Of a stretch of 64,000 nt of DNA, positions 11,263 through 19,611 are shown piece by piece. The position numbers and the translations under genes are program-made. The notes beneath the pieces are model-generated. The model was not told the DNA's origin, searched no databases, and saw only the letters and a list, made by a program, of their open reading frames with translations. Numbering within the stretch: position 1 is the stretch's first letter; each line of letters begins with the position of its first letter. The stretch comes from Defluviicoccus sp. (GTDB lineage Bacteria; Pseudomonadota; Alphaproteobacteria; MPNO01): assembly GCA_028821395.1 (NCBI GenBank), contig JAPPGP010000222.1, forward strand, positions 1-64,000, in the 5' to 3' direction.

Positions 11263-12435
11263 CTACGCCGGCGCGAGGACCTCGTTGCGCGAGGGGACCT
11301 CGACGACGCGGTGGGCCGGGTCGCGGGCGATGCCGGGCGGGTCCTCGCCGCGCTCCACCGCCTCGACCGCCTCGCGCAGGCGGCGGCGGAACATGACGAC
11401 GCCGCGATCCGACGTCGCCAGGTGTTCGAGCCCGTGGCGCGCGATCGCCCGCTGGCTCACCTGCGCCTCCCAGTCGTCGGGCGCGCGCTGGGTCGCCTCG
11501 TAGTCGCGGACGACCGGCGCGTCCGGCGGCTGGAAGATCTTCTTGTTGGGGTCGATGCGCTCGACATGGAAGCCGATCGTGTGCTCGTCGTCGACCGGGA
11601 CCCACCAGCCCATCATGCGCGCCCGCTCGGTCTCCTCGGGGTCGGTGCCGGTCACCTCGGGCGGCGGCACCGACCGCGCGGTCGGCACGAAGACGGTGGA
11701 GATCCGGGTCAGCCGATAGCCGCTGTCGAGATCGGTGGTGCGGATGTAGGACACGTGGCGGTCGGAATTGACGTAGTCGAAGCGCGGCAGCACCGACATC
11801 ACCTCGGAGAACTCGAACAGGCCGGGGTTCCAGCCGTGCAGGATGTAGGTGTGGACCGGGTCGACGGCGTTCTCCTGGAGCTGCAGCCAGTTGCACGCCG
11901 CGACCTCGCCGCGGCTGTAATTGCGGTAGGCGAGATACTCCGCCTCCGCGTCCTCCAAGATGTCGTAGCGCGGCAGCAGGGGCTTCCTCTCGAGCGGCCC
12001 CATATAGGCGAAGACCAGACCCATATACTCCTCGGCCGGGTACCAGGGCTGGCGAACCTCGTCCCGGTAGCGGCTGTGCGCCGGCTCGCCGGGCTGGTCG
12101 AGGCAGCGGCCCTCGTGGTCGTAGAGCCAGCCATGGTAGCAGCAGCGGATGCCGCCTTCCTCGATGCGGCCGTATTCGAGCGAGGTGCCGCGATGCGCGC
12201 AATGGGCGCCCAGCACGCCGACGCGCCCCGACTTGTCGCGCCAGGCGACCAGCTCCTCGCCCAGGATTCTCGCGAATTTCGGCAGCTCCCCGAGCTCGGA
12301 CGACAGGCAGACCGGGTGCCAGTAGCGCCGCATCAGCTCGCCCATCGGCGTGCCGAAGCTCACATGGGTGAGCCGCGCGTCCTCCTCGGGGACGATCGCG
12401 TTGCGGCCGTAGCCGGACCCGTCGGAAACGTTCAT
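11263..12435 (-). CDS. Rieske non-heme iron oxygenase, phthalate dioxygenase-like
   Basis: A 390-residue oxygenase alpha subunit. The N-terminal Rieske 2Fe-2S site is CAH (in GAHCAHRG) and CxxH (in CCYHGW). The catalytic iron site follows in ENAVDPVHTYILH (D..H....H), with an Asp in DDWEAQ as likely third ligand. The C-terminal SDRGVVMFRRR pattern is shared with the oxygenase at 59299-60573 and is typical of the phthalate 4,5-dioxygenase branch. It should hydroxylate or demethylate an aromatic or heterocyclic acid, using electrons from a reductase not seen here. It lies 22 bp downstream of the TRAP large permease, in the same operon. Confidence 0.93.
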   Translation of the reverse strand: MNVSDGSGYGRNAIVPEEDARLTHVSFGTPMGELMRRYWHPVCLSSELGELPKFARILGEELVAWRDKSGRVGVLGAHCAHRGTSLEYGRIEEGGIRCCYHGWLYDHEGRCLDQPGEPAHSRYRDEVRQPWYPAEEYMGLVFAYMGPLERKPLLPRYDILEDAEAEYLAYRNYSRGEVAACNWLQLQENAVDPVHTYILHGWNPGLFEFSEVMSVLPRFDYVNSDRHVSYIRTTDLDSGYRLTRISTVFVPTARSVPPPEVTGTDPEETERARMMGWWVPVDDEHTIGFHVERIDPNKKIFQPPDAPVVRDYEATQRAPDDWEAQVSQRAIARHGLEHLATSDRGVVMFRRRLREAVEAVERGEDPPGIARDPAHRVVEVPSRNEVLAPA

Positions 12436-12457
12436 CCGCCTCTCCCCCGGCCCCGTC

Positions 12458-13765
12458 TCACATCAGGCTCGGCAGCCACAGCGCGAGCCCCGGGAAGGCG
12501 ACCAGGATCAGGATCAGGATCGTGTCGCAGACCAGGAAGGGAAACGCGGCGCCGGCGACCTGGAACAGGGTCGTGCCCTTGGGCGCGACCCCCAGCATGA
12601 CGTAGAGCAATAACCCGAAGGGCGGGGTGGTCCCCGCCATCTCGATCGTAATCAGGACGAACAGCCCGTACCAGATCAGGTCGAAGCCGAGCGCATGCGC
12701 CAGCGGAAAGAAGATCGGCACGGTGATCAGCATCATCGAGGTCGCGTCCATGAACATGCCGAGCAGGATCAGGACGCAGAACATCATCAACAGGATGATC
12801 AGCCGGTGCAGCTCGTAGCTGGTCACCCATTCGATCAGCCCCCTGCTGGCGCCGGAGAAGGCGAGCATCTGGCTGAACACGGTGGAGTTCATCAGGATCA
12901 GGAACACCATCGCGGCGACCCGGATGGTGGCCTCCACCGAGGTCTTCATCGATTCGAAGGAGAGCGTGCGGAACAGCGCCGCCAGGATCATCACCCCGAG
13001 CACGCCGCAGGCCGCGGCCTCGGTCGGGGTGGCGATGCCGAGAATGATAAAGCCGATCACCATGAAGACGACCAGCCCCATGGGCAGGATATTCGTCGAT
13101 ACCAGCCGGATCTTGGTGCCGAGGCTCATATGGGGCACGTCGTAGGCGGGCGCCGAGCCGGGGTTGCGCAGCAGCTGGAGGGTGATCATCGCGGCGTAGA
13201 GGCCGGCCAGCACGAAGCCGGGCAGGAAGCCCGCCACGAGAAGCCGCCCCACGTCGATCTCCGCGATGGCGGCGAGCAGCACGCCGAGCGCCGACGGCGG
13301 GATGATCATGGCGAGCCCGCCGGTCCCCAGGATCGGCCCCATCGACATCTTCTGGCTGTAGCCGCGCCGGTTCATCTCCGGCACCATCAGCGAGCCCAGC
13401 ATCGCCGTGTTCGCCATCGACGAGCCGGTCAGCGTGGAGAAGATCGCCCCGCCCGCCACGGTGAGGTAGCAGAGCCGCCCCGGCAGGCGCCCGAAGATCG
13501 CGTCCAGCCCGTCGAACACCTTGATGGCGAGCCCGGTATGGAAGAACAGCGAGCCCATCATGATGAACATCGGCACCGGGCCGAGGGTGAAGCGGCTGAT
13601 CAGCTCGGTCGAGTTGTCGGCAACCTGGATCAGGCCGGAGCTGCCGGCGAAGATGAGGATGGCGATCAGGTTGGTGGCGACGAACGCGAAGGCGACGGGA
13701 ACCCCCATCGCCAGAAAGCACATCACCATGCCCAGCAGGAGGGCGAAGGCCCAGTACCACTCCAT
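12458..13765 (-). CDS. TRAP transporter large permease (DctM)
   Basis: A 435-residue inner-membrane protein with about 12 helices. DctM hallmarks: GVPVAFAFVATN near the start, GSSMANTAMLGSLMVPEM, and IIPPSALGVLLAA in the substrate path. It is the ion-coupled translocation subunit for acidic solutes. ATG 13765 is chosen because it follows the DctQ stop by 2 bp; the frame stays open upstream but overlaps dctQ. Operon order: dctQ, dctM, Rieske oxygenase. Confidence 0.94.
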   Translation of the reverse strand: MEWYWAFALLLGMVMCFLAMGVPVAFAFVATNLIAILIFAGSSGLIQVADNSTELISRFTLGPVPMFIMMGSLFFHTGLAIKVFDGLDAIFGRLPGRLCYLTVAGGAIFSTLTGSSMANTAMLGSLMVPEMNRRGYSQKMSMGPILGTGGLAMIIPPSALGVLLAAIAEIDVGRLLVAGFLPGFVLAGLYAAMITLQLLRNPGSAPAYDVPHMSLGTKIRLVSTNILPMGLVVFMVIGFIILGIATPTEAAACGVLGVMILAALFRTLSFESMKTSVEATIRVAAMVFLILMNSTVFSQMLAFSGASRGLIEWVTSYELHRLIILLMMFCVLILLGMFMDATSMMLITVPIFFPLAHALGFDLIWYGLFVLITIEMAGTTPPFGLLLYVMLGVAPKGTTLFQVAGAAFPFLVCDTILILILVAFPGLALWLPSLM

Positions 13766-13767
13766 GC

Positions 13768-14295
13768 CTACATCCCTTCCCGCACGTCCATCCGGCTGCC
13801 GTACATGTCGTCGATCCCGACCAGGAAGCGCAGGAACTCGATCGCCACCAGCCCGAAGCCGAAGGGCATCGGGAAATAGAGCGTCCACAGCCAGAAATCG
13901 GCGCCCCGGTCGTCGATGGCCTCGTCGACGAACGCTTCGATCAGCAGCAGGATCGAGAAATAGGTGAGAACGACGCAGCCGACGATGACCACGCAATAGG
14001 CGAACTTGGCGAGGATCTTGCGCCCCGCCTCCGGCATGAGCTGGGTCACCGCGTCGATGAACACGTGTCCCTTGATCCGCGCCAGCCAGGGGGCGGCCAG
14101 CATGGTGAACCAGAGCAGCCCGTACTCGACCAGACCGTGGGTGCGGTCCCACGGAATCACCGGCGCGCCCCACTTGGCGAGGATGGTCAGCCCGACATCG
14201 AGGACGATGACCGCGAACACGCCGAAGATGATCAGCTGCGAGCCCGCCTTCATGACGTGGATCAGCCGCAGATGGGCCTTGGCGATGACGTCCAC
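13768..14295 (-). CDS. TRAP transporter small permease (DctQ)
   Basis: A 175-residue membrane protein with four predicted helices (first near residues 17-38). It has the DctQ landmarks LAAPWLARIKGHVFID and the C-terminal FPMPFGFGLVAIEFLRFL. It scaffolds the large permease and contacts the binding protein. First gene of the dctQ-dctM-oxygenase operon; the 153-bp gap to the tRNA on its right probably holds the promoter. Confidence 0.92.
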   Translation of the reverse strand: MDVIAKAHLRLIHVMKAGSQLIIFGVFAVIVLDVGLTILAKWGAPVIPWDRTHGLVEYGLLWFTMLAAPWLARIKGHVFIDAVTQLMPEAGRKILAKFAYCVVIVGCVVLTYFSILLLIEAFVDEAIDDRGADFWLWTLYFPMPFGFGLVAIEFLRFLVGIDDMYGSRMDVREGM

Positions 14296-14448
14296 GAGCT
14301 CTCCCCGCGAAGCCGCCGCCCCGGAGATCGGCCGCAGCGGTTGGGCATCGGGAACACTTTACCCCCGCAGGCCGGGCGGTCCAACCGACGGAGGACCGGC
14401 CGGCAGAGGGCGCTTGTCACCGCATCGGGGAAGTGGCAGCTTCGCCCC

Positions 14449-14525
14449 GGGCCCGTAGTTCAGCTGGTTAGAACGCGCCGCTCATAACGGCGTTGTCGCA
14501 GGTTCAAGTCCTGCCGGGCCCACCA
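14449..14525 (+). tRNA. tRNA with CAU anticodon, probably tRNA-Ile2 (CAU)
   Basis: A 77-base cloverleaf with encoded CCA. Acceptor GGGCCCG (14449-14455) pairs with CGGGCCC (14515-14521); the D arm, anticodon stem CGCCG/CGGCG and T arm with GTTCAAGTC are intact. The anticodon is CAT at 14483-14485. CAU reads as elongator Met, or as Ile when C34 is modified to lysidine; the acceptor and the GTTCAAGTCC T-arm resemble tRNA-Ile2 more, so identity is tentative. Its last 16 bases recur at 16589-16604. Confidence 0.93.
14510..14525 (+). repeat. att-like direct repeat, copy in tRNA 3' end
   Basis: The 16 bases CCTGCCGGGCCCACCA at the tRNA 3' end are repeated exactly at 16589-16604. Integrases commonly recombine at tRNA 3' ends and leave such a copy at the far side of the inserted DNA. 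Confidence 0.8.
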
Positions 14526-14584
14526 AGCCCACACAACGGCCTCGCTTTCAATCGGCTACCCCCCCTTCCGGTCGGCCGGCGCGA

Positions 14585-15817
14585 TCAGGCCGCGCCCTGC
14601 CTGGCAACAGGCACGGTCTTCAGGTGCTCGTCGACGGCATCGACGACGCTGTCGGCAATCGGCAGATGCGCCCTTTCGGCGTTCCAGTGCTGGTGGAAGA
14701 GCTCGACGGTCTCGCGGGCGGTGTCGAGCACCAGCCTGGCGGACAGCCGCGCCTTGGCCGCGAGATGGCAGAGCTCGTCTTCGGAGAACCGATCGAAGCG
14801 CCTGGTTCGGCTGAAATTGAGCGCGGCCCCGCTGTCCGGGATGTAGGGAATCGTGGAGACGAAATCGTAGGCCGGCGCGAGCGCGGCATGCCGTTTGTCG
14901 GGATAGATCAACGACCAGTTCTTGAGATGCATGTCGGCATTGCCGATCAGCGTGCCGAAGGTGAGCCGGCGAATGAATTCGGCGGTGTCGTCCTCGGTTC
15001 CTTCGGCGCCGATGACGCGGGCGATGCTGCGGGCGCTCGCCTTCTTGTACTTGTCCTCGGGATAGACACCGAAGATCTGCGCGAAGTCCTCGACATGAAC
15101 GGGGGCGCCGTCCGCGAGCCGGTCGAAGCGCTGGATGGCGAGGGCGGGTCCATCCGGCACACCGATATCCCGGGGCAGGTTCCCTATGGCTCCCGGATCG
15201 ACGAGCTTCAGTGCCGGTACATCCATGCCGATCATTCGGGCGAGCGTCATCATCGCGAATTCGTTCTCGGGCACGCCTTCGAATTCGCGTGACGGCAGCT
15301 TGACGATCCACGATCCGCCCATGCCGCGCGCCGGGATCGTCAACCCGCCGCGCGCCGCCTCGATCGCGGAAAACTTCAACTGGACGCCGGCCAGCGAGAA
15401 GCGCAGCGCGTTGTCGTGCCCGCGGCGGTCCGGCTCATCGCGATCGTCGACATCGTGTGACCATGCCTCGCCCCCGGCCGGCACGACGGTAACGGCCCCC
15501 GGCAGGTCGCTCCCCAGCGCCCGCAGCAGGAAGAACTCGCGCACCGGATCAACGCCGGCCCGCGCGGCCAGGTAGTCGCGCATTCGCCCCTCGGGCAGAA
15601 GATTCGAGAAGAAGGGCGGTAGCCTGACTCGCCTCGGCCTGAATTCCGTAATGAGCTCCCCGAACCGGTCCTTGAAGGCGAGCCCGAGAACGGGCCGGTC
15701 TTCGTCCGCCACGTAGTCCTCGGCGAAGGCGAACAGCGTGCGCTCCCCCGCCACATGCGTGAGCGTGCCGACCAGGCCGCCGTGAAGCAGGACGTCGAGG
15801 ACGCGAACGTCAGCCAT
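14585..15817 (-). CDS. hipA: HipA-family Ser/Thr kinase toxin
   Basis: A 410-residue HipA kinase, full length for the family. The ejectable P-loop is at 142-149 (LAGVQLKF) preceded by Ser141, the position autophosphorylated in E. coli HipA (Ser150). The ATP lysine is K173 (WIVKLP). The catalytic loop GNADMHLKN (292-300) supplies D295, and the metal Asp is D318 in AYDF. All key residues are intact, so it should be active. E. coli HipA phosphorylates glutamyl-tRNA synthetase and causes persistence; the target here is inferred. ATG 15817 overlaps the hipB stop by 8 bp (coupled translation); an in-frame ATG at 15826 is an alternative. Confidence 0.93.
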   Translation of the reverse strand: MADVRVLDVLLHGGLVGTLTHVAGERTLFAFAEDYVADEDRPVLGLAFKDRFGELITEFRPRRVRLPPFFSNLLPEGRMRDYLAARAGVDPVREFFLLRALGSDLPGAVTVVPAGGEAWSHDVDDRDEPDRRGHDNALRFSLAGVQLKFSAIEAARGGLTIPARGMGGSWIVKLPSREFEGVPENEFAMMTLARMIGMDVPALKLVDPGAIGNLPRDIGVPDGPALAIQRFDRLADGAPVHVEDFAQIFGVYPEDKYKKASARSIARVIGAEGTEDDTAEFIRRLTFGTLIGNADMHLKNWSLIYPDKRHAALAPAYDFVSTIPYIPDSGAALNFSRTRRFDRFSEDELCHLAAKARLSARLVLDTARETVELFHQHWNAERAHLPIADSVVDAVDEHLKTVPVARQGAA

Positions 15818-16415
15818 CGTCGTCGTCATCCAGGCTGTAAGCGGGCCGGGCCGTCCCGACGTCATCGGCGGCAGGCGGAGCATGGGCGAGCGCGTTGCGC
15901 AGGTCGCGCAGCGGCGCGAGCGCGTCCTGAAGCGCGCCGAGGCCCGTGGCGTTCTCATGGAAAGCCTGCACCGCCGCCGTTGCGGCGCGGATCGCGTCGA
16001 GACGGTCTGCGGGAATCGCGAAATGCCGAAGGCCGCGAACCTGCCGCTGGATCTGGGCCAACTCGACCACGGCCGGGCGGGCCCGCGCAGCGCGGGCGGC
16101 CAGGTCCTGAAGCCCCTTGAGCGCGTTGAGCGAGCGCCGAGAGGCCCGCGCGGGCTCAAGCGCCGTTGCGTCGCTCCGCCCGATTATGGCGTCCACGGCG
16201 GGAACCGCCTTGCGGGGCACCAGCACGAGGTCCAGTTCCAGCACACGGGCGAGCTCGACCAGGCTCGAGAGCCGGAGATCCACCGCACCGTTCTCGATCT
16301 TCGAGATGTGTCCCTGAGCTATCCCGGCTTTGGCGCCGAGCGCGCGCTGGCTCAGCCCGCGGGCTTCGCGGGCGTTTCTGAGCGCGCGGGCGATATGTTC
16401 GGTGGCATAGGTCAT
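15810..16415 (-). CDS. hipB: HipB-type XRE antitoxin/repressor with long helical C-terminal region
   Basis: A 201-residue protein, more than twice the usual HipB length (about 90). An XRE helix-turn-helix covers roughly residues 8-62 (LSQRALGAKAGIAQGHISKIE). A helix-rich region at about 92-180 follows, ending in LRNALAHAP, then an acidic tail (DDDDD). It should bind the operator at 16418-16437 and neutralise HipA. The motif R173-N174-x3-H178 matches the RX4H of HEPN ribonucleases, but one motif does not prove such a domain. First gene of hipBA. Confidence 0.9.
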   Translation of the reverse strand: MTYATEHIARALRNAREARGLSQRALGAKAGIAQGHISKIENGAVDLRLSSLVELARVLELDLVLVPRKAVPAVDAIIGRSDATALEPARASRRSLNALKGLQDLAARAARARPAVVELAQIQRQVRGLRHFAIPADRLDAIRAATAAVQAFHENATGLGALQDALAPLRDLRNALAHAPPAADDVGTARPAYSLDDDDDG

Positions 16416-16417
16416 TT

Positions 16418-16437
16418 CGATACACTTTTTTCTATCG
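16418..16437 (-). promoter_or_regulatory. hipBA operator candidate
   Basis: A dyad CGATA-N10-TATCG lies directly upstream of the hipB ATG, across the ribosome-binding region. E. coli HipB binds a TATCC-N8-GGATA dyad, so the geometry is similar. A further CGATA half-site is at 16524-16528. Autoregulation by HipB is inferred. Confidence 0.55.
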
Positions 16438-16459
16438 CAAAGCCACTCTGATAAATCTC

Positions 16460-16488
16460 TCTATATTCTTTCAGCGGATGCAGATCAA
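16460..16488 (-). promoter_or_regulatory. hipBA promoter candidate
   Basis: On the minus strand, TTGATC (16483-16488) and TATAGA (16460-16465) are spaced by exactly 17 bp in an AT-rich stretch. The expected transcription start falls just upstream of the dyad at 16418-16437, so a bound repressor would block elongation or initiation. Confidence 0.5.
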
Positions 16489-16588
16489 AGTATGATATTC
16501 TAAAGTAGATCAATTGGTTGTTTCGATAGAGTTAAAACGATCGAGCGTGATCTGACCGCCCAGACACGGCCGCGTCGAGCGCCCGGCC

Positions 16589-16604
16589 CCTGCCGGGCCC
16601 ACCA
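16589..16604 (+). repeat. att-like direct repeat, distal copy of tRNA 3' end
   Basis: An exact copy of the last 16 tRNA bases (14510-14525), including CCA. Upstream of it the sequence no longer matches the tRNA, so it is a 3' fragment and not a second tRNA. It lies 4 bp before the hydrolase stop codon. Confidence 0.8.
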
Positions 16605-16608
16605 CCCG

Positions 16609-18036
16609 CTAGCCGGAGGTGCCGAGCCGTTCGAGCAGCTGCTTGAGGCGGTCGAGGGGGGTTCGGTCGCGCATCATCTGCAGCGGCACCGAGAAATGGC
16701 CGCGCCGCCAGATGAAGCGGTTCTCCGCCGGCACCCGCCAGTCGTCGATCAGCGCCTTGCCGGTGGCGAACGGGGTCACGGTGTCGCGGCTGCCGAGCAC
16801 GGTGACGATGTTTTCCGGGTCCATCGCGGGGGGGCCGCCCTGGGGGTCGAGCAGGGGGAGCCAGCGCACGGCTTCGTCCCGGGTCCAGCCGCGCGCGGCG
16901 ATGGCGTCCGCCACGCCCCACAGCCGGGCCATGCTGCCGCGCAGCGCGGCGTCCTCGTGATGCCCGCAATGGGTGACGAGGAACAGCGCGTCGGGCCGGA
17001 CCCCGGCCGGCCAGGCGCTCGCCCTGACCGCGAGCAGCTGGGAGAGCAGCGCGCCGAGGCTGCTGCCGCCGACGGCGACCGGGCCGCGGCTGGTCCGCCG
17101 GCTCCAGTCGATCAGCACCGGCCATTCGAGCAGCTGGGCGGAAAACGTGTCCAGCGCGCCGCGCGGCGCGCGGGCGATGAACATCTCCCCGCCATAGCGC
17201 CCGTCGGGGACCCGCCTGCCGTGCCACGGCGCTTCCGGCCGGACCACGCGGATCCCCATCTGGCACATCAGGAACACCTCGTCGACCAGCCCGTGCCAAT
17301 GGTCGAACTCGACGCAGATTCCGTGGCCGAACACCAGCGTGGGCGGATCGGCGACGCCGACCGGCTCGTAGACCCGGGCGAACACGTCGTCGTCCATCAC
17401 CGGGCTCGGCGAGCGGAACCTGAGCCAGTACTCCTCGCCCACCGGCCCCGGCACGCGCTGCGACTCGAACACCTCCGGAAACGGCGGTATCGGCGCGAAG
17501 GCGGCGGCCGGGTTGGCCAACCACGCGCCGTAATCCGCCTCGACCTCGTCCACGCCCGGTACGTCCCAGCGCACCGGCAGGATCGGCCGCCGGCGCCTGA
17601 GATAGGAAAAATGCCGCCTGGTCGCGTTGTAGGCGTTGCGCCGGTCGCGCCGCGCGGCCTCGATCGCCACCAGTCGGTAGAGCTCGGTCCCCGCTTCGCC
17701 GAAGAACACCTGGCGCCAGCGCGCTTCGGTCGCGTTCACCGCCTCGCGGGCGGTCTCGAACCGGTCGAGGGTCTTGCGCAGCCTGGCCCCGATCCCCGGG
17801 ATCGGGTCCATCGGCACCTCCTCGTAGAACTTGAGCAGCGACCCGTTGGCGGCCCGCGCCGCCGCCCACAGCCGCGACAGCGGGAAGTACCAGCGCCCCA
17901 GCAGCCACAGCGCCACGGGATCGAACCACGGCCGCGCCAGCCCCGCGCCGACCGGCGAGCGCAACCATCTCTCGCTGAAATCCTCGGCGGTGAGACGCGG
18001 TTCCCAGCCCTCGGGAACAACCGGGCCAGCCTTCAA
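16609..18036 (-). CDS. alpha/beta hydrolase
   Basis: A 475-residue alpha/beta-hydrolase-fold protein. The nucleophile elbow is GGSSLGAL (GxSxG), with an oxyanion HG in FGHGICVEF. The acid is likely Asp in GSRDTVTPF and the base His in RRGHFSV, so the triad appears complete. The N-terminal 200 residues are an extra region of no recognised domain. The TTG start overlaps the stop of the acyltransferase gene (TTGA at 18033-18036), so the two are co-translated; an ester or thioester in lipid metabolism is a reasonable guess. The stop codon abuts the mini-island. Confidence 0.8.
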   Translation of the reverse strand: MKAGPVVPEGWEPRLTAEDFSERWLRSPVGAGLARPWFDPVALWLLGRWYFPLSRLWAAARAANGSLLKFYEEVPMDPIPGIGARLRKTLDRFETAREAVNATEARWRQVFFGEAGTELYRLVAIEAARRDRRNAYNATRRHFSYLRRRRPILPVRWDVPGVDEVEADYGAWLANPAAAFAPIPPFPEVFESQRVPGPVGEEYWLRFRSPSPVMDDDVFARVYEPVGVADPPTLVFGHGICVEFDHWHGLVDEVFLMCQMGIRVVRPEAPWHGRRVPDGRYGGEMFIARAPRGALDTFSAQLLEWPVLIDWSRRTSRGPVAVGGSSLGALLSQLLAVRASAWPAGVRPDALFLVTHCGHHEDAALRGSMARLWGVADAIAARGWTRDEAVRWLPLLDPQGGPPAMDPENIVTVLGSRDTVTPFATGKALIDDWRVPAENRFIWRRGHFSVPLQMMRDRTPLDRLKQLLERLGTSG

Positions 18037-19466
18037 GACGCGGCGCCCCGCTCTGGCAGCAGGTGGTTCACGGGCTTGACGTAGAAATCGAGCAATTCGC
18101 GTTCTTCGGGGTTTACCTTGTACCTGCCGGGCGGATCTTCAAGCAGGATTCGGCGCTTCAGCAGCAGCTTCAAACCGTCGCCGACGGCCAGGCTCTCTTC
18201 GCCGAAGGGAACATACACATGCGCGCCGGTGCTTTCGAACGCACCGATGAGCCGGTGCACGCCCGCCTTCAGCTCGAGCTCGTTCAGCGCCCGGTCGGGG
18301 TTTTCCGCCATGGCCGTCGCGATCAGCGAGACCGGCAGCACGGGGATCAGCCTGCCCACCTCCTCCATCAAGCCGGTGACGAGCTTCATCGAGACGCCGT
18401 AGCGGGTCTCGCGGTCGAGCCCCTCGAGCACGACCTCGTTCTCGGCGAGCCACGCCTTGAGGGAAACCGGCGCCCCGAAATTGGCGCAGGCCCGGCCGAA
18501 TCGCTGGCGCCGTCCTTGGATCAGCTCGACGGAGGTGCGGAGGAAGAACGCGACCGTGGAGCGCAGGACGAAGACGGTGCCCCGCTGGCTGAGCATCGCC
18601 TCGTCGCCGTGGCGCAGCAGCGTGCGGTCCTCGACCACACGCTCGTAGTTGATCGCGACCGGGATGAACAGGACGTCGGGCGAGGATTCGACGTCGAAGC
18701 CGCGCATTATGTAGTCGACCAGCCCGGCCTTGGGCGGCCGCAGCCCGCCGTCATGCGACAGCCCGGCCTCGGGAAACAGCGCCTGGGGCACGCGGCCCTC
18801 CACGGCGAGCTGGACGTAGCGCTCGACCACGCGCCGGTAGAGCGGATTCCTGGAATTGCGCCGGACGAAATAGGCGCCCATCGCGCGCAGCAGATTCGCC
18901 ACCGGCCAGAACAGCGTCCATTCGCCCGCCGCATAGGAGAGCGCGGCGCGGCGCGAGGCGAGATAGGTGATGAGCAGGTAGTCGAAATTGCTGCGGTGGT
19001 TCATCACCAGCACCAGGCTGGCGCCGCTGTCGACCCTGTCGAGCGTTTCCTGGTCGGCGTAGCCGAGCCGCACGCGATAGAAGAAGCGGATGAACCGGCG
19101 GGCCAGGCGGTAGCCGAGGCGGAAATAGAAATAGGCATTGAACCCGGGCACGATCTCCTCGGCGTAGCCCCGGATCTCCTCGACGACGATCTGCTGCGGG
19201 ACGTCCCGCTCGGAGGCGGCCTCGGCCGCCGCCCCGAGCACCTTCTCGTCGTAGATCAGGCGGTCGATCAGCGTGTCGCGCTTGGTCAGCATGAACGGCG
19301 GCAGGTCGATCCGCAGCCGCGAATTCACGTCCTCGATGACCCGGTAGACGCGGCGCCGGAGCACCCAGCGCGTGCCCGGCATGAGGAAATGGCCGACAAG
19401 GGAAAGCAAGGCGAGCGCCGAGACCAGCACGACGAGCCAGACGGGCAAGGCGACGAGTTCGCCCAC
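18033..19466 (-). CDS. glycerol-3-phosphate acyltransferase-like protein (PlsB/DHAPAT type)
   Basis: A 477-residue membrane-associated acyltransferase. N-terminal membrane segment near 8-28. All four acyltransferase blocks are present in order: HRSNFDY (H157 and D162 of HX4D), GAYFVRR (198-203 region), [10 protein letters not shown] (231-240, phosphate-binding block) and IPVAINYE (268-275). The blocks fit the GPAT/DHAPAT branch better than PlsC. Much shorter than E. coli PlsB (807 residues). Expected reaction: acyl transfer to sn-glycerol-3-phosphate or a related polyol. Operon with the hydrolase; divergent from the LysM protein across 145 bp. Confidence 0.87.
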
Positions 19467-19611
19467 GAGACCTCCCCGGCGGACCGCAGCCCCGCACCGG
19501 GACCGCCTCGATGCTCGCCGGCGACACCCGCTGTGCAGGGCAGCGATGTATTTTGCCCAGACTGCACCTATATTAGCACAGGCGTGTTGTCGCGATCGGG
19601 ACGGTAGTCAG

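Follow-up and report, generated by a model that had tools for sequence, protein, structure and literature searches.

A hipBA operon between two copies of a tRNA 3' end in Defluviicoccus: a probable CIME-like, integrase-less island

The hipBA operon and its flanking repeats

Our window, a 64-kb stretch of DNA from Defluviicoccus, a wastewater-type bacterium, contains a single tRNA gene, which has a CAU anticodon and is followed by a hipBA operon and a predicted hydrolase gene. ARAGORN assigns the tRNA to Met, and Ile2 may be an alternative. The locus comprises the following features.

14449-14525, + strand: tRNA gene, anticodon CAU (ARAGORN); integration target
14510-14525, + strand: tRNA-side 16-bp repeat CCTGCCGGGCCCACCA, left attachment site, within the tRNA 3' end
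14526-16604, no strand: inserted unit, made up of a 2,063-bp cargo and the distal 16-mer; not present in the related genomes G003 and G004 (blastn, junction sequences)
14585-15817, - strand: hipA, HipA-family kinase toxin, 410 aa, intact; Pfam PF13657 (Couple_hipA) and PF07804 (HipA_C), PDB matches to HipA and HipT
15810-16415, - strand: hipB, HTH antitoxin/repressor, 201 aa; HTH_3, overlaps the hipA start
16416-16588, - strand: AT-rich hipBA control region, 173 bp, 45% GC, next to the distal repeat, with a promoter-like site of its own
16494-16511, - strand: candidate HipB operator, imperfect palindrome GATATTCTAAAGTAGATC (+ strand letters; alignment A2)
16589-16604, + strand: distal 16-bp repeat CCTGCCGGGCCCACCA, identical to the tRNA 3' end; right attachment site
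16609-18036, - strand: resident predicted hydrolase, 475 aa, right chromosomal flank; orthologues in G001-G004

A sequence-only reading of this DNA had reported that the 3' end of the tRNA recurs exactly downstream of the gene. We confirm this recurrence: the two copies are both found on the + strand and start 2,079 bp apart. The repeated 16-mer corresponds exactly to the 3' strand of the T-stem, the 3' strand of the acceptor stem, the discriminator A and CCA. There is no further copy with two or fewer mismatches in the window (the shuffle mean is 0.09), and under a dinucleotide model the 2,064 bp that follow the tRNA should contain 1.7e-6 exact copies, in agreement with the earlier judgement that a chance match is very unlikely. 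The distal copy ends at 16604, 4 bp before the hydrolase stop codon (16609-16611, - strand), again as originally described.

hipB is located upstream of hipA and overlaps it by 8 bp (15810-15817), and the operon is transcribed toward the tRNA from the 173-bp control region. HipA contains both the N-terminal and the C-terminal kinase domain and matches HipA structures in the PDB by sequence, and HipB matches TIGR03070 (couple_hipB) below the family cut-off. By domain content and gene order the pair is predicted to be a hipBA type II toxin-antitoxin module. The palindrome in the control region, a putative HipB operator, has counterparts in G002 and in the hipBA copy of G004 (alignment A2). Pfam searches and an ORF check bear out the claim that hipA, hipB and their control region are the only cargo: no recombinase gene is found in the unit, antisense ORFs between the repeats have no Pfam match, and the 2,063 bp contain no remnants of relaxase or integrase genes. 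The control region is AT-rich as proposed, and AT-richness is confined to it; the island is otherwise ordinary in composition (66% GC versus 69% in the window). The 475-aa hydrolase-like protein has no Pfam or NCBIfam match and gives 49-59% matches to proteins of several alpha- and gammaproteobacterial metagenome genomes.

The tRNA site in related genomes

We compared the locus in five Defluviicoccus genomes, the window's own (G000) and G001-G004, all of them draft assemblies and the latter four metagenome-assembled. The CAU tRNA is identical or near-identical in all five. G003 and G004 contain the empty site that the sequence-only reading had proposed to look for, with the tRNA, a single 16-mer and, directly adjoining, the hydrolase gene, and without hipBA. 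In blastn alignments, window positions 14525 and 16589 are joined at this single 16-mer, precise to the base (loci L039 and L040), and the matched flanks extend over window positions 12000-14525 and 16589-19478. Among the features by which tDNA islands of the site-specific, tyrosine-integrase type are recognized, the far-side direct repeat of the tRNA 3' end (16/16 at 16589-16604) and the single-repeat empty site in relatives (G003, G004) are thus present, and an integrase gene inside the unit is absent.

A third relative, G001, has different DNA at this position: an insert of 1.65 kb that carries a single ORF of 478 aa separates the tRNA from the hydrolase gene. The insert is closed by CCTGCCGGGCCCGCCA, a 15/16 copy of the repeat (one mismatch), and its ORF encodes a metallopeptidase-like motif, HELIHLLGRGH. 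This alternative cargo supports site-specific insertion. Two observations would have spoken against the earlier reading, hipBA at this position in all relatives or a distal 16-mer conserved without hipBA, and neither is made in the genomes compared. Our comparison defines a site-specific insertion at a 16-bp core, with an intact and conserved hipBA operon and no recombinase inside, at a site that has been used repeatedly by unrelated DNA.

The 478-aa protein itself is lipoprotein-like (L037 3322-4758, - strand; G001:C42) and has no Pfam match. It belongs to a multi-copy family present in 5/5 Defluviicoccus genomes and 0/16 others, some copies of which lie near tandem tyrosine integrases (L177, L182). 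A similarity between the G001 cargo and a lipoprotein near hipBA in G004 was considered and is unsupported.

In G002, hipBA again adjoins the hydrolase gene, with 90% DNA identity to the window. The distal 16-mer has been lost there, and the G002 hipBA copy can therefore no longer excise alone. The 16-mer on the tRNA side matches exactly; in front of it stands ABC-transporter DNA instead of the tRNA, which is found on another contig, joined to the opposite end of the same metabolic gene cluster. This cluster, split in G002, is contiguous in G004 contig C185. The simplest reading of this tandem-like arrangement, seen in draft contigs and across the break between contigs C13 and C66, is that a 16-mer-bounded segment of at least 20 kb was later added between the tRNA and hipBA. 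The right end of G002 contig C13 carries a group II intron-like reverse transcriptase at the contig end (L043 15023-15862), which probably broke the assembly inside this segment. Recombination with a tRNA fragment on G000 contig C64 (see below) was rejected as the source of the arrangement: a SnoaL-like gene, not the integrase side, is met first going away from the tRNA.

hipA sequences of G000 and G002 differ with a dS of 0.225 (dN/dS 0.31), and the hydrolase genes with a dS of 0.178 (dN/dS 0.26). The two dS values are close; hipBA and its neighbour have therefore been passed on together from a time before the G000/G002 split, and the substitution pattern indicates one old insertion, common to both genomes, under purifying selection. 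The sequence-only reading had left open whether the module is moving or once moved; the second part is now favoured, because hipBA was present before this split. Between G000 and G004, dS amounts to 0.55 for hipA and 0.47 for the hydrolase gene.

Repeat copies, integrases and hipBA loci elsewhere

Over the five genomes (∼26 Mb), where ∼0.04 exact 16-mers are expected by chance, we located exact copies in the five tRNAs, at the distal position in G000, at the proximal position in G002 and on G000 contig C64. All non-tRNA copies thus lie at the hipBA site or touch a tyrosine integrase gene (contig C64). Copies with one mismatch comprise the G001 distal repeat and CCGGCCGGGCCCACCA, which occurs once in each genome and belongs to a tRNA-Leu in G000. 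A downstream repeat was found at 0/19 equivalent tRNAs outside the genus.

The integrase on contig C64 (L042 7684-8987) is a 421-aa protein with Arm-DNA-bind_3 and Phage_integrase domains. The 3' end of its gene runs into a ∼50-bp fragment resembling the 3' part of the CAU tRNA and ending in the exact 16-mer. The gene is part of a 3.3-kb insert that is absent from G003 and G004; the insert is positioned between an ABC solute-binding gene and its permease gene, and a second integrase fragment follows (L042 9054-9659). A search of IMG/VR returned no relatives of this integrase. Its paralogues were dismissed as extra helpers: among those whose sequence was followed beyond the 3' end, none ends in a tRNA fragment. 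The last 25 bases of the CAU tRNA occur in 65 IMG/VR stretches, 24 of which are fragments, and 5 of these 24, on five viral contigs, have a detectable integrase 93-190 bp away. The CAU tRNA end is therefore a usual target.

The search for hipBA elsewhere or in a larger element, also suggested by the earlier reading, identified a G004 copy (80% HipA identity) at another locus (L044, G004:C9 10-8676), flanked by a TrwC relaxase gene on one side and on the other by a tyrosine-integrase fragment of the tandem-pair type common in the genus. This locus is likely a decayed conjugative element; its hipBA has no 16-mer and is not located at the CAU tRNA. HipA relatives with 60-66% identity are frequent on alphaproteobacterial plasmids. 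We rejected the idea that hipBA recurs as a unit at other tRNAs: a tRNA lies within 1.5 kb of hipA in 0/12 other class-level genomes with strong HipA matches. An origin as a phage gene was likewise rejected, with no match in phage records and only two distant ones (55-56%) in IMG/VR.

Origin of the unit and known parallels

Our preferred explanation, to which we assign a probability of about 0.8, is that the unit is a CIME-like island that lacks an integrase and has shrunk to a toxin-antitoxin operon, located at a tRNA site that has been used repeatedly. Since no integrase adjoins the CAU tRNA in the five genomes, we infer the insertion enzyme: a tRNA-targeting tyrosine integrase would have catalysed the event, and among the enzymes that the genome encodes today, the 421-aa C64 protein is the best candidate. 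hipBA may have been brought in by a larger element that was later stripped of its other parts, or may have been moved in trans as a small unit flanked by att sites; it would now be a stable, vertically inherited remnant. It is plausibly retained by a toxin-antitoxin effect, because its loss would free the HipA kinase toxin.

Between these two routes we lean toward decay, in which a hipBA-carrying conjugative element at the tRNA lost its integrase and transfer genes by internal deletions, because a hipBA element of this type exists in G004 and because CIMEs are described as originating in this way (PMC5704250). The frequency of HipA relatives on alphaproteobacterial plasmids points in the same direction. 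Decay is nevertheless only somewhat favoured, given that the cargo is free of relaxase and integrase debris, that the G004 copy lies away from the tRNA and without the 16-mer, and that no intermediate was found. Mobilization in trans is possible. An actively mobile minimal passenger, excised and inserted by an integrase encoded elsewhere, such as that on C64, would move by analogy like a cassette handled by an integron integrase. The intact 16/16 repeats in G000, the integrase gene touching the same 16-mer in the same genome, the second one-gene, integrase-free unit in G001 and the many integrases of the genus are consistent with it; we nonetheless consider it rather unlikely in view of the single old insertion common to G000 and G002, with a dS like that of its neighbour, and of the 12 class-level hipA relatives without a nearby tRNA. 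Speculative, and doubtful at present, is the proposal that the Defluviicoccus tRNA serves to dock integrase-free single-operon units that are interchangeable and are moved in trans by an integrase encoded elsewhere, namely hipBA and the lipoprotein-like gene with the metallopeptidase-like motif, in a cassette-like traffic over the 16-bp tRNA core in which the toxin-antitoxin unit would secure its own retention.

Alternatively, hipBA could be ancestral at the tRNA, in which case G003 and G004 would have lost it by precise excision and there would have been no gain in the lineage of G000 and G002. The similar G000-G004 dS of hipA and hydrolase would allow hipBA to be as old as the genus, and G001 holds another insert at the site; this scenario requires at least two independent precise losses and leaves the G004 hipBA at a different locus, and appears improbable to us. 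That the repeat is a chance match or duplication beside an ordinary chromosomal operon would fit the near-genomic GC content of hipBA and its age of at least the G000/G002 split. The expected number of copies given above, together with the precise empty sites and the other inserts with the same core, refutes a chance match as the source of the distal 16-mer, and makes this explanation extremely unlikely.

CIMEs (cis-mobilizable elements) are known from Streptococcus thermophilus, where they are related to ICESt1 (reviewed in PMC5704250). As in CIMEs, attL and attR are kept and integration and transfer genes are absent from the hipBA unit, which corresponds to the structural part of their definition, and other elements accrete alongside at the same site, as suggested by G002. 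Unlike CIMEs, the unit carries one toxin-antitoxin operon only, in 2.1 kb, and its parent element was not found. The nearest population-level parallel is provided by the Dehalococcoides ssrA islands, which occupy one tmRNA 3' end with 20-bp repeats between them; 15 of these islands, which are without an integration module, have been proposed as cis-mobilizable (PMC3146451). The overlap between integrase gene and repeat seen on contig C64 is found there as well, but the recombinase is a serine recombinase, the target is the tmRNA and the cargo consists of reductive dehalogenases. Islander-type tDNA islands share the far end marked by a 3' tRNA fragment in direct orientation, of the T-stem crossover class, whereas their definition requires an integrase gene inside, by which the hipBA unit would be filtered out (PMC4383910). 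In Shewanella putrefaciens, HipAB likewise resides on an island in a composite at a tRNA (GI21/CGI48) and was experimentally shown to stabilize the island after excision; CGI48 is however a 48-kb composite with GI21 that encodes an integrase and an excisionase, whereas hipBA is the whole cargo here (PMC8978831).

The novelty lies in how extremely the island is reduced, to one toxin-antitoxin operon, at a site that is empty in some relatives and holds a different single gene in another. tRNA islands are usually detected via their integrase, so integrase-less single-operon islands are missed by searches such as Islander. The hipBA case reveals that such units exist: the site is empty in some relatives and otherwise occupied in others, and the genome that carries the unit also encodes a candidate helper integrase. 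The case further makes it testable whether toxin-antitoxin operons outlive the elements that brought them, and whether they guard neighbouring att sites against loss.

Tyrosine recombinases of Defluviicoccus also form many tandem pairs and one trio (L182 8461-11796; L186, L188, L189, L190), an arrangement that we take to be reminiscent of recombinase-in-trio elements.
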